NCBI GenBank assembly: GCA_019096065.1
Contig: JAGUCH010000009.1
Span: 5,218,001 to 5,282,000, forward strand
Direction of reading: 5' to 3'
Length of the DNA: 64,000 nucleotides
From: Paracyclopina nana
Lineage: Eukaryota > Arthropoda > Copepoda > Cyclopoida > Cyclopettidae
Shown here: in pieces, positions 41,140-59,495 of the stretch
Numbering within the stretch: position 1 is the stretch's first letter
Layout of the letters: every line of letters begins with the position of its first letter
Position numbers and translations under genes: made by a program
Notes under the pieces: generated by a model
Seen by the model: the letters and a program-made list of their open reading frames with translations, nothing else
What the model was told of the DNA's origin: nothing
Databases searched by the model: none

Positions 41140-44100
41140 TTAGTCAGGGTGGAGGTAGACGAGGTCGTTGATCACCTCGTCGCTCAAGTGCTGGTAGATG
41201 ATCCAGTACATGAGCTGGAAGCACGTGAAGGTCACGGGGAAGAAGACGCGGCTGTACTTGTCAATGTCTGAGGCCGTCATGCCGAACATCTTGTTCAGCT
41301 CCTTCATGTCGCACTCGGGATTTGGTGGGGGCGCCCCAGCCTCGAGGGGCACTGCTGGGGGCTGCTGCTGCGGGGGAGGGGGCGGGGGCAGCCCGCCCGG
41401 AGGGACCATGCCTGGCGGGCCCATCATCATGGGGGGCGGCGGGGGCCCGGAGTTCATGAGGGGCGGGCCCATGGGCGGGCCCATCATGTGCATGTGGTGC
41501 ATTGGCGGCGGCCCGGTCTCTTCGTCGTAGCGGCCCATGCCTCTGCTCATGGGTCGATATTTTCCTCCTCCTCCGGGAGTTGGCACGGGAGGGCCATAAC
41601 GGTTTATGGTGTTCTCGCGCGAGCTGCCCTTGCAATGCATTTTCGGGTCGTGCACCTTAAAGTGAACAGTCTGTAAATTGAGAAAATTCGGCCGTTAGGG
41701 GCTTCTTTCACGAGAGTCTGCTAGAATAGTAAAGAGCAAACAATTGCACATCAGCTTTTTTTTAACTTTTCAAGGCGGGTGGAGGTCGAGCGTTGCCACT
41801 TTTCAGCCACAACCGTTATCTCGAGTTGGTCTTGATGTCAATATCAGTAGCGACGAACAACTTTTATATACGTAATATTGCATAGCAAGTGAAAAAGGAA
41901 GAAGAGAAACGGAAAATCCTGCCAAATGCAAATAGAAGATCTTATTTAAGGCTAAAATCAACTGAGATTATTCCACAGATTCATGGGTAAATTTTTGGGC
42001 CTATTAGAAAGATGGGGTGTTAGTTAGTTGGAGGGCAGCACTCAAGTAAGAATAGCTTTGCTTGAAATAGTTATTATAGCCTATTATATAATGGCAGGGT
42101 GAGCTATCCACACGTTCTTGCTGTGTATCCCCAATATTTTTTGTAGGTATATATAGGTATAGTAACCAAAGTGCGAATGTTGCATGCAGTGCAAATAATT
42201 ACAGCTAGTACATAGAGGGGATGAGAGGTTATTTAGTGTGTGACATGCAAATGAAACTTTGCTAAAAGTCGGCCCCGCTAAAACGAGAGATTTTTTGCCT
42301 TTGCTTCGCGCTTGCAAGGAGAAAGTGAAAGCAACACCAAAGTTTGCTCAGCCAAGAAGAGAGAGATGCCATTGACGACATGCAAATCACACAGGCTGCA
42401 ATAGAATCGTGTGTGAGTGCTAGTGTTGCAGCAGCAGTAGACGTATGAACGAGGTTGTGTGGCAATGACAGGTGCTCAGATTGCCACTCTGGCAGCAACA
42501 TCAAGTCAACAAAAGAAAAGGGGAATCTCCTTTAGAGAGAAGTTATAATAATGCCCTTGGTGCATCATCATTTTTGTCAACAACAACAACAACAACAACA
42601 GCAACAGCAAGAAGAGCTTTCTTTAGAGGTGCTTACTCAAGCATGCTTGATTTCATTACTTAGAAAGCAGATAGTGCGATCCTAGTCAGGATGGAGGTAG
42701 ACGAGATCGTCGACGACATGGTCGCTCAAGTGCTGATAGATGATCCAGTACATGAGCTGGAAGCACGTGAAGGTCACCGGAAAGATGACTCGGCTGTACT
42801 TGTCAATGTCCGAGGCTGTCATGCCGAACATCTTGTTCAGGTCCTTCATGTCGCATTCCGGATTGGGCGGAGGAGGCGCTGGTGGAGCGGGCAACGGAGG
42901 CGGGGCCGGAGGGGGAGGGAGTGGAGGGAGCTGGGGTAGGAGAGGGGGCGGGGGCCCTAAATGATGGGGGTGGATGGGCAGGGGCGCCTCCTCGTCGTAT
43001 CTCCTCATTCCATACTTGCCAGAGCCATATCGGCTGATGGTGTTCTCGCGCGAGCTACCCTTGCAATGCATTTTCGGGTCGTGCACTTTAAAGTGGACCG
43101 TCTGTAAGGAAAAATCGAGGAGCCGGCTAAGGTCGATTGGCCTTTTTCACATATGTTGTTGTTGCTGCTGCTCTAGAAAGCTATGAATGTACTACTATAC
43201 GTGGTAGTGGCATCAATAAATTATGCACCCAACGACTGCTTTCTCTTTTATAACCCACCTTTCATGCCCGCCACCAAAGTCCGCATCACCACTTTCAAGA
43301 AACGAGATATTTCATCAGACAGACAAGTTTCTAAGCCAAGGAGAAGCGTTTCTACAAGGACCTTAATGGCAGCAGCTGGCATTACATAGGTAGTAGATGC
43401 CAAGTGAACCGACACCTGCTCAGTGGTAAGCAGCTATACAGACGGATGTTCGGAGCAGAGAGCGAGAAAAAGGCCACAACTCAAATTCACGGCGTGTTTG
43501 GTGTAGTAGTAGATTAGTATAGTAGGTGAGGGAGAGAAGCTACACAGCACTAACACTCATTGCGCATGCAAACAAAAAAGACGACCAATAACAAGCAGAT
43601 ATAACCTTAAGTAATTATAGGTGTGTGTGCTATCATTTCTCCTGTGTAGAAGAAATTGAAGAACTCTGTTGTGCAGCAGCAGCAGATCAACACGAGCGAG
43701 CAAGGGTAGCATGTTTTTGAGCAAAAGTCATCAGGCACCAGTTGATTTGACACTCATCCGTTCAGCATGACCAGATCTTCCGCCACCTCGTCGCTCACGT
43801 GGAGGTAGATGATCCAGTACATGAGGTTGAAGCAGGTGAAGGTAACCGGGAAGAAGATCCGGGAGTACTTGTCAATGTCCGACGGGCTGATCCCCATCAT
43901 CTTTTGCAAGTTCTTCTTGCACTGCTGAGGCGGGGGCATGCTGGAGGGCGGGGCCGGCTGAGGAGGGGGCGTGGCTTCAGGTAGCAAGGTCATGGCCAGC
44001 TCGTCGAGGCCACCATGGGCTCTTTGCTGGAGGCGTTGCTGCATTCGCTGGCGGTTGTTGTAAAATTGCTGCTGGGGGTTGAGCGGGGGGCAGTGGGAGT

Positions 44101-44248
44101 AGTACTGGAGGGGCGGGGACATGGCGGCGGGTGGGAGGGGCCCCCCTAGCGAGGAGGTCGACCCATGGAATCCATGGGCTTTCGCGGTGGTAGCAGCTGC
44201 CCTTGTCGTCGTTTTGCTACCCGGCTCGTGCATGTTTATTCGAATTTC
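41140..44248 (-). other. Cluster of three alternative Rdl terminal exons
   Basis: Gene order is C1 44248-43754, C2 43101-42682, C3 41670-41140. Each starts in phase 0 after a good acceptor, contains a Pro-rich M3-M4 loop and M4, and has its own stop. C2 and C3 are close paralogs (both [17 protein letters not shown]; both end DLVYLHPD). C1 is distant ([13 protein letters not shown], ends DLVMLNG) but its M4 is nearly identical. Loops differ strongly: C3 is Met/Gly/Pro-rich, C2 has long Pro-Leu runs, C1 is Gln/Thr-rich. Only one upstream E8 exists, so these are alternative last exons, not three genes. Confidence 0.93.
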
Positions 44249-59200: not shown

Positions 59201-59495
59201 AGGGACGAATCATAAAAGTTTTTTTTCTCTTGACGTCATATTTTTGTCTCCCTCTCTAATGAACGCCATTTGAGCTTTGCTGCAGTCATTCTACAGCCAT
59301 TAGTGAATTAAAAGACGCCTTCATCTTTCGAGTAGGATTTTGGTCCATTTGCTAATTGCGCGAGCTAGTTTTTTTTCCTTACCCAGATTGAGCATTCACG
59401 CCCATCATGGTTGGCTTGGAACCAAAGAAGGCCGCAAGGATGCCAAAGATGACTACAACCTTGACACACAAGTCATTCTGTTGGTAGTAGCACAT
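41140..59495 (-). CDS. Rdl: GABA-gated chloride channel subunit RDL, with tandem alternative exons
   Basis: Exons: E1 59495-59383; E2 56694-56606; E3 one of 56275-56208, 55085-55018, 53443-53376; E4 one of 51481-51258, 50617-50391; E5 48567-48485; E6 48412-48275; E7 47083-46799; E8 46360-46194; terminal exon one of 44248-43754, 43101-42682, 41670-41140. Every combination is in frame; products are 528-566 residues. E1 is a signal peptide ([15 protein letters not shown]). E2 reads NISALLNSF...[12 protein letters not shown]4 holds ligand loops ([18 protein letters not shown]). E5 has the Cys loop [16 protein letters not shown]7 carries M1-M3. E8 reads [19 protein letters not shown]. The last exons carry M4 (DIDKYSR...FPVTFTCF). 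Pentamers mediate fast inhibition and are targets of cyclodienes and fipronil. M2 has Gly at 2' ([10 protein letters not shown]). Introns E8-C (1.9 kb), E5-E4 (1.8 kb), E4-E3 and E2-E1 (2.7 kb) show no other exon. Confidence 0.97.
42578..42610. repeat. (CAA)n microsatellite
   Basis: Eight CAA units followed by interrupted CAG/CAA, just downstream of terminal exon C2. Confidence 0.85.
46935..46937 (-). other. Rdl M2 2' codon: Gly (GGC)
   Basis: The codon reads GGC in the context CCA GCA AGA GTC GGC CTC GGG GTC. In fruit-fly RDL the same place is Ala301/302. Substitution to Ser or Gly there is the classic cyclodiene and phenylpyrazole resistance change. The exon is present once, so all isoforms share it. 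Confidence 0.95.
47158..47624. repeat. Degenerate inverted minisatellite (Rdl intron E6-E7)
   Basis: The left half repeats variants of CTTGGATCGACTA and ACTTGGTTCGACTAG; the right half carries the complements (TAGTCGATCC, TAGTTGATCCAAGGAC, GCCGAACCAAGG). Units are about 20-25 bp and diverged. The layout resembles the foldback element at 25925, but the sequence is different. No clean ends or target duplication were found. Confidence 0.65.
49981..50005. repeat. (AGC)n microsatellite
   Basis: About seven AGC units in the Rdl intron between E5 and the E4 pair. Confidence 0.85.
50391..51481 (-). other. Duplicated Rdl exon 4 (loops D and A), mutually exclusive pair
   Basis: E4a 51481-51258 (224 nt) and E4b 50617-50391 (227 nt) have the same phases (0 in, 2 out) and about 92% identical protein. 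Differences are concentrated: NEPG in E4a against ERREG in E4b, IKLIW against INLIW, and YFHDATT against YFHKATT. Both keep the agonist-site segments MYFRQFW and [11 protein letters not shown]. Including both would shift the frame, so they should be exclusive. Confidence 0.92.
53376..56275 (-). other. Triplicated Rdl exon 3, mutually exclusive set
   Basis: E3a 56275-56208, E3b 55085-55018 and E3c 53443-53376 are each exactly 68 nt, with phase 1 in and phase 0 out. They encode [40 protein letters not shown] and [20 protein letters not shown], followed by VEM, VDM and VMM. Since 68 is not a multiple of 3, including two of them breaks the frame. Flies have two variants of the corresponding exon (a and b). 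Confidence 0.94.
56161..56200 (+). repeat. 5' fragment of the short interspersed repeat
   Basis: AAAATACCAGAAAGTGGATT followed by TTTG and AAATCGAGC. It lies directly downstream of exon E3a in the Rdl gene. Confidence 0.5.

Follow-up and report, generated by a model that had tools for sequence, protein, structure and literature searches.

A Copepod Rdl Gene with Tandem Copies of Exon 3, Exon 4 and the Terminal Exon Is Likely a Combinatorial GABA-Receptor Gene

The minus strand of a 64-kb window of the copepod Paracyclopina nana (the whole 64,000-nucleotide stretch that we analysed, contig JAGUCH010000009.1) contains, from position 59495 to 41140, one complete Rdl-type gene for a receptor of gamma-aminobutyric acid (GABA). 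Nine coding positions make up this gene, and while most are occupied by a single exon, exon 3 is present in three copies, exon 4 in two and the terminal exon in three (Table 1). When exon boundaries were placed on splice sites and the exons joined and translated, all 18 possible combinations were open, with products of 528–566 amino acids and zero internal stops; splice sites were intact and phases matched for every copy of exons 3, 4 and 9. We consider it likely, at a probability of about 0.8, that this is one intact gene whose transcripts would take one of the three exons 3, one of the two exons 4 and one of the three terminal exons. The initial annotation, made from the letters of the window, had reported three 68-nt exons 3, two copies of the exon encoding loops D and A, three terminal exons and a single M1-M3 exon, all with intact sites, matching phases and no stops; its coordinates, counts and exon length proved correct, and its reading of the copies as intact is borne out by the 18 open combinations.

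The lengths of the copies suggest how they would be used. The exons 3 (e3A, e3B and e3C) are each 68 nt long, e4A is 224 nt and e4B 227 nt; as all of these are 2 modulo 3, omitting or adding a copy would shift the reading frame, from which we infer that exons 3 and 4 would each be chosen as mutually exclusive copies. The terminal exons 9A, 9B and 9C each join exon 8 in phase 0 and each has its own stop codon, so that exon 8 would be spliced to one of the three, each supplying its own loop, M4 and stop. Exon 4 encodes what we take to be the strands bearing agonist loops D, A and E; judging from position, exons 3 and 4 may tune the response to agonist, and the terminal exon may tune trafficking, anchoring or gating via the loop and M4. 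The loops of the terminal exons differ, with long proline runs in 9B and 9C and shorter ones in 9A. A search of the 64-kb window identified no second exon 6 or other additional Rdl exons.

Table 1. Exons of the P. nana Rdl gene and one candidate intron pairing arm, in window coordinates.
Feature	Position	Strand	Evidence
Exon 1, start codon and signal-peptide-like leader	59495-59383	-	ATG open frame, donor CTGG/gtaagg
Exon 2, single	56694-56606	-	splice sites; one match within window
Exon 3 copy A, 68 nt	56275-56208	-	tttcag/GTC...ATG/gtacta
Exon 3 copy B, 68 nt	55085-55018	-	ttccag/GAA...ATG/gtaatg
Exon 3 copy C, 68 nt	53443-53376	-	ttgcag/GTA...ATG/gtactt
Exon 4 copy A, 224 nt, D-type (FHDATT)	51481-51258	-	ttacag/GAC...TTAG/gtgagt
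Exon 4 copy B, 227 nt, K-type (FHKATT)	50617-50391	-	ttacag/GAC...TTAG/gtacgg
Exon 5, single, Cys-loop	48567-48485	-	splice sites; window search
Exon 6, single in P. nana	48412-48275	-	splice sites; window search
Exon 7, M1-M3, single	47083-46799	-	splice sites; window and assembly searches
Exon 8, start of M3-M4 loop, single	46360-46194	-	splice sites; window search
Terminal exon 9A: loop (EIRINMHEP...), M4, stop	44248-43754	-	ttgcag/GAA; 9A-type clade 97/92
Terminal exon 9B: loop, M4, stop	43101-42682	-	ttacag/ACG; 9B/C-type clade 100/97
Terminal exon 9C: loop, M4, stop	41670-41140	-	tttacag/ACT; 65% amino acid identity to 9B
Exon 2-3A intron arm (weak lead)	56384..56515	-	complementary to segments ahead of 3B (55171-55187) and 3C (53652-53667)

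Several lines of evidence place the product with RDL. It matched the ligand-binding domain PF02931 (E 2e-50) and the transmembrane domain PF02932 (E 1.1e-44), each match exceeding the curated cut-off, and has a Cys-loop in exon 5 with two cysteines 13 residues apart; exon 7 carries before M2 the PAR motif, which characterises anion channels and is lacking from GRD and LCCH3 (PMC2064938). The best solved chain was 9she, the Drosophila RDL-like GABA receptor beta (692.6 bits, E 3.8e-207), the next being a glycine receptor (351.6 bits). Among the database matches listed, RDL or GABA receptor beta names dominated, and the best-scoring relatives were those of the salmon louse Lepeophtheirus salmonis and of Tigriopus californicus. 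Over M1-M3 the identity to the seven RDLs compared was 86–94 of 94 residues, i.e., 94/94 to P0001 (salmon louse), P0022 and P0006, 93/94 to P0004, 88/94 to P0054 of Nilaparvata and 86/94 to P0201 of Homarus; the M1-M3 of both T. californicus and L. salmonis were identical to that of P. nana or one residue apart. The exon 1 leader also resembled the salmon louse leader (IFGILAxFFG), and the salmon louse orthologue forms GABA-gated chloride channels (PMC5664438). Judged by its sequence, the P. nana gene encodes an RDL-type subunit, predicted to form GABA-gated chloride channels. At the M2 position called 2', in exon 7, the window has Gly (PARVGLG) and the Drosophila chain 9she has Ala; the salmon louse and one of the two Tigriopus genes share the Gly, the second Tigriopus gene and the decapods have Ser, and P0012 has Met.

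Much of this arrangement is shared by two other copepods, Tigriopus and the salmon louse. Tigriopus, unlike P. nana, has two Rdl genes, to which we assigned the rows by their common backbone and by whether the M2 residue is G or S. Each of the two has both a D-type and a K-type exon 4, as in e4A and e4B, and both 9A-type and 9B-type ends, and those predictions that run through both copies keep the order seen in the window. The salmon louse likewise has both types of end: when P0001 and P0008 were compared, their parts from e2 to e8 were without difference and their terminal exons differed, one being of 9A-type and the other of 9B-type. Five further proteins, P0009, P0013, P0014, P0019 and P0036, which we infer to be copepod transcripts from their similarity and their short contigs (about 2–4 kb), add to this picture. 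Among the parts compared, the terminal exon alone distinguishes P0013 from P0019; P0009 is distinguished from P0014 by two of 21 exon-3 residues, one leader residue and the terminal exon; and P0036, whose start is incomplete, combines the P0013 backbone with a different exon 3. Apart from P0002 (two exons 4) and P0024 (no exon 3), the relatives' proteins carry one copy each of exons 3 and 4. A search of relatives for matching copies had been proposed in the initial annotation; as Tigriopus and the salmon louse share much of the arrangement, it is not private to P. nana.

For the trees we used 34 rows chosen from 216 proteins, with exact duplicate segments collapsed; P0002_0, P0024_0 and P0036 (fused or near-identical) were left out of the M4 set, which retained P0007, and P0007, which looks mixed with a paralogue, was left out of the exon-4 set. 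P0012, P0020 and P0037 were not used as evidence, as they share a common end but differ at 9–11 of 94 residues in M1-M3 and may be chimeric. In the M4 tree (29 rows, 52 columns, which is few, and with an outgroup that did not fall on one side of a branch) all eight 9A-type rows were on one side of a branch (97/92) and all 12 9B/C-type rows on one side of another (100/97), and the M4 sites that distinguish the two types do so consistently across the rows of Tigriopus, the louse and the window. The tree thus dates the distinction between 9A and 9B/C types to before the split of the copepods sampled, and the division between 9B and 9C looks like a later one. The loop of P0006 was nearer 9B than 9C (364 vs. 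305), and those of P0080 (338 vs. 252) and P0007 (339 vs. 216; the probably mixed protein) were nearer 9C than 9B, so the 9B/9C split is probably present in other species too; there was no separate 9C-type end among the Tigriopus and salmon louse rows compared. The RLSEV ending of 3B was otherwise seen only in three Tigriopus rows. The conserved part is opposite in the two types of end (41140-44248): 9A-type ends have an insect-like M4 and a diverged loop, and 9B/C-type ends have an insect-like loop start (HDPKxHxKG) and a diverged M4.

For comparison with other arthropods we tabulated 17 insect, three decapod and two copepod species with at least two rows among the matches listed; this table was drawn from 120 matches per search, clustered at 90% identity, so that alternatives within a cluster or of lower rank would escape it. 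Exon 4 had a single form in 16 of the 17 insects and all three decapods, and the two forms in Lucilia were one residue apart. The last 45 residues had one form in 15 of the 17 insects and again in all three decapods; of the two exceptions, Periplaneta showed point differences only, and Nilaparvata has a real second terminal exon. The start of the loop varied (at least two forms) in at least 12 of the 17 insects, so we counted only the M4-bearing end as an alternative terminal exon. The window exon-3 endings SLSEVEM and SVSEVMM resemble the pair SLSEV(K/Q)M and SVSEVLM, found together in 13 of the 17 insects and one of the three decapods, and this SLSEV/SVSEV pair may be ancient.

The known RDL systems share parts of this pattern. 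Drosophila melanogaster Rdl is like the P. nana gene in encoding the orthologous subunit and in having tandem alternative exons, including exon 3; however, its alternatives lie at exons 3 and 6, each represented by a pair of mutually exclusive exons, with all four isoforms observed (PMC4588896; for the two versions of exon 6 also PMC5664438), whereas exon 6 of P. nana is single and the copies are 3 × 2 × 3 at exons 3, 4 and 9. Tribolium castaneum RDL has three alternative exons 3 as in P. nana, but its exon 6 is alternative as well, and the part of PMC2064938 available to us mentions no alternative exon 4 or terminal exon. The planthopper RDL resembles that of P. nana in having two terminal segments, each comprising loop and M4, as alternatives: Nilaparvata P0054 and P0114 are identical in the parts compared from e2 to M1-M3 and have different ends, and RDL exon 9 of another planthopper, Laodelphax, is in the title of a paper cited in PMC7891696. 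Unlike P. nana, Nilaparvata showed one exon-4 form in six of six rows among the matches listed, and its second end fell outside the copepod 9A and 9B/C clades in the M4 tree. We found no open-licence paper, by title or start of abstract, on copepod Rdl exon duplicates or on a second Rdl exon 4. The initial annotation was thus right that fly Rdl varies at exons 3 and 6 with two versions each, which fits PMC4588896, and its view that P. nana departs from this pattern holds in part: the terminal-exon duplication has an insect precedent in Nilaparvata and exon-3 triplication is already published for Tribolium (PMC2064938), while the exon-4 duplication is the part without precedent among the species and literature compared.

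As to how the choice between copies would be made, the spacing between them (intron lengths of 640, 1122 and 1574 nt) makes simple steric exclusion an unlikely cause of exclusivity. We looked at intron pairing. Helices of 16–17 nt were identified for the exon-3 cluster (Table 1), and complementary arms also join the 4A-4B intron to the intron before exon 5. By local-helix score, covering 11 distinct intron pairs, shuffles as good numbered 28/1000 for i2-i3AB, 66/1000 for i2-i3BC and 21/1000 for i4AB-i4B5, compared with 269/1000 for i8-i9AB and 709/1000 for i8-i9BC; for six of the nine intron pairs first scored, 37–77 of 100 shuffles were as good, and the joint shuffle score for the exon-3 pair was 2/400. 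The competing-pairing layout is as expected but statistically marginal, and we regard it as a lead only. Whole-intron duplex folding was set aside as a method because entire introns pair; among the values listed, shuffles as low numbered 27/37 for i2-i3AB, 2/27 for i2-i3BC, 19/23 for i2-i3C4, 0/12 for i4AB-i4B5 and 1/4 for i3C4-i4B5.

A number of observations weigh against reading the locus as one gene with a choice at each cluster. Exon use in P. nana is predicted from genomic DNA, and the Tigriopus records are largely gene predictions. Among them, P0002 has both exons 4 in tandem together with pieces of both ends, P0024 contains both ends and lacks exon 3, and P0005 (isoform X3) has the beginning of a 9A-type exon fused to an exon of 9B-type; such joined-copy proteins mean either that exclusivity is not strict or that the predictions are in error. 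Both of the salmon louse representatives have the same exon-4 type, the exon-4 tree (22 rows) did not separate D- and K-types (K-type as one clade, p of the approximately unbiased test, p-AU, 0.288), and intron pairing is at most a candidate mechanism for exclusivity, the helices being not significant once the 11 pairs tested are counted.

It could also be supposed that the extra copies come from further Rdl genes or from assembly error, the former being what the initial annotation had named as a possible source, and Tigriopus with its two Rdl genes lends this some plausibility. We searched the 92-Mb assembly (10 contigs) with e7, e4A, the M4 part of e9C and P0220, a second copepod Rdl-like paralogue. 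The M1-M3 exon e7 had one 100% match, the next by score being 54% and the highest elsewhere 60% over 45 residues; e4 had two close copies (100 and 93%), the remaining 19 of 21 matches being at 33–51%; and the M4 part of e9 had three (100, 91 and 73%), the other seven of 10 matches being at 36–54% over 26–44 residues. The best match to P0220 was this same locus (79%, with at most 53% elsewhere), and in the window e7 occurs once, as do e5, e6 and e8. None of the four queries identified a second Rdl gene in the assembly, so the extra copies are not supplied by further Rdl genes. Nor do alleles, haplotypes or assembly duplicates account for them, as the copies are too diverged: nucleotide identity is 60–69% between exon-3 pairs, 82.5% between the exons 4 and 53–66% between e9 pairs, with tblastn E-values within the window of 6e-7 to 3e-6 among exon 3 copies, ~2e-43 for e4A vs. 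e4B and ~3e-26 to 1e-68 among e9 copies, the latter for e9B/e9C. We thus regard an origin from other genes or from misassembly as highly improbable. It is somewhat less improbable, though still not something we would expect, that some copies, e.g., 3B or 9C, are relics in decay that no transcript includes. Differences between copies are mostly silent, with synonymous (dS) and nonsynonymous (dN) divergence of 1.44 and 0.09 for e4A vs. e4B (92% amino acid identity), 0.37 and 0.05 for the M4 part of 9B vs. 9C, 0.74 and 0.23 for that of 9A vs. 9B, 0.64 and 0.23 for 9A vs. 9C, and a dN of 0.19–0.29 with a dS of 1.89 or saturated for the exon-3 pairs. This divergence suggests that the copies are maintained by selection, although pairwise dN/dS is no proof of it for any single copy; each copy also keeps its sites, frame and phase, the RLSEV ending of 3B recurs in Tigriopus, and the P0080 and P0007 loops mentioned above argue against 9C being a relic, although P0007 looks mixed with a paralogue.

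The remaining alternatives concern how the copies are used. The exons 9A, 9B and 9C could be alternative last exons, each followed by a poly(A) site of its own, or alternative acceptors for exon 8 before one shared distal poly(A) site. In favour of a shared site, neither AATAAA nor ATTAAA occurs in the 652 nt downstream of 9A and the 1011 nt downstream of 9B, and the first AATAAA lies ~1.05 kb past the 9C stop. However, both regions lacked these signals in 20.8% of 500 shuffles, which is not significant, and other hexamers, which many poly(A) sites use, are present; we consider the shared-site arrangement unlikely. It is quite possible, if short of an even chance, that the copies are used in linked sets by tissue, stage or sex, which would leave the number of isoforms well below 18. 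Individual proteins of the relatives showed few combinations, and of the 180 isoforms possible for fly Mhc, 12 were observed (PMC4588896); on the other hand, with four isoforms seen, the fly Rdl clusters may splice independently (PMC4588896), the Tribolium exon 3/6 combinations were transcribed in six of six cases (PMC2064938), and among P0013, P0019 and P0036, which share a backbone, one exon 3 is combined with either terminal type and the 9B-type end with two exons 3. The further proposal that copepod Rdl is a three-cluster combinatorial gene that combines its choices freely, to give up to 18 subunits for mixed pentamers, with the main agonist-site strands encoded by an exon whose duplication is absent from the insects and decapods checked, is one that we put forward tentatively.

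Arthropods have in RDL a principal inhibitory receptor, which insecticides target and at which sea-louse drug research is also directed. The salmon louse receptor was examined as one cloned form, with a half-maximal effective concentration (EC50) for GABA of 393 uM vs. 10.5 uM for the fly form (PMC5664438). If copepods do have several variants of the agonist site and M4, one clone would not represent the receptor, and the low GABA sensitivity of the louse clone could be a property of one isoform. With exon 6 single and exon 4 and the terminal exon copied, P. nana Rdl would also be a case of splicing diversity moved between exons of one gene, and the main interest lies in the duplicated exon 4 and its spread in copepods.

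The paralogue search brought up a second Rdl-like subunit whose exon 4 starts with DFTFD; it was seen in P0217, P0218, P0220-P0234 (P0222 being from the calanoid Eurytemora), P0238, P0239 and P0264. This exon-4 type was present in 20 of the 23 proteins listed in one search, with M1-M3 identical to the window at 75–76 of 94 residues in the three compared, and was not found in the P. nana assembly with the P0220 query. Elsewhere in the assembly there were neighbouring pairs of cys-loop receptor matches at C4:8211080-8214484 and C8:6298505-6319059, perhaps tandem genes of other subunits. Within the window itself, an exon-sized open frame on the plus strand (28828-29343) matched the sodium:dicarboxylate symporter family PF00375 (E 1.5e-41) and is perhaps part of a glutamate transporter, and a 458-residue open frame on the same strand (15804-17180) had PAN domain matches (PF00024, E 3.8e-12).

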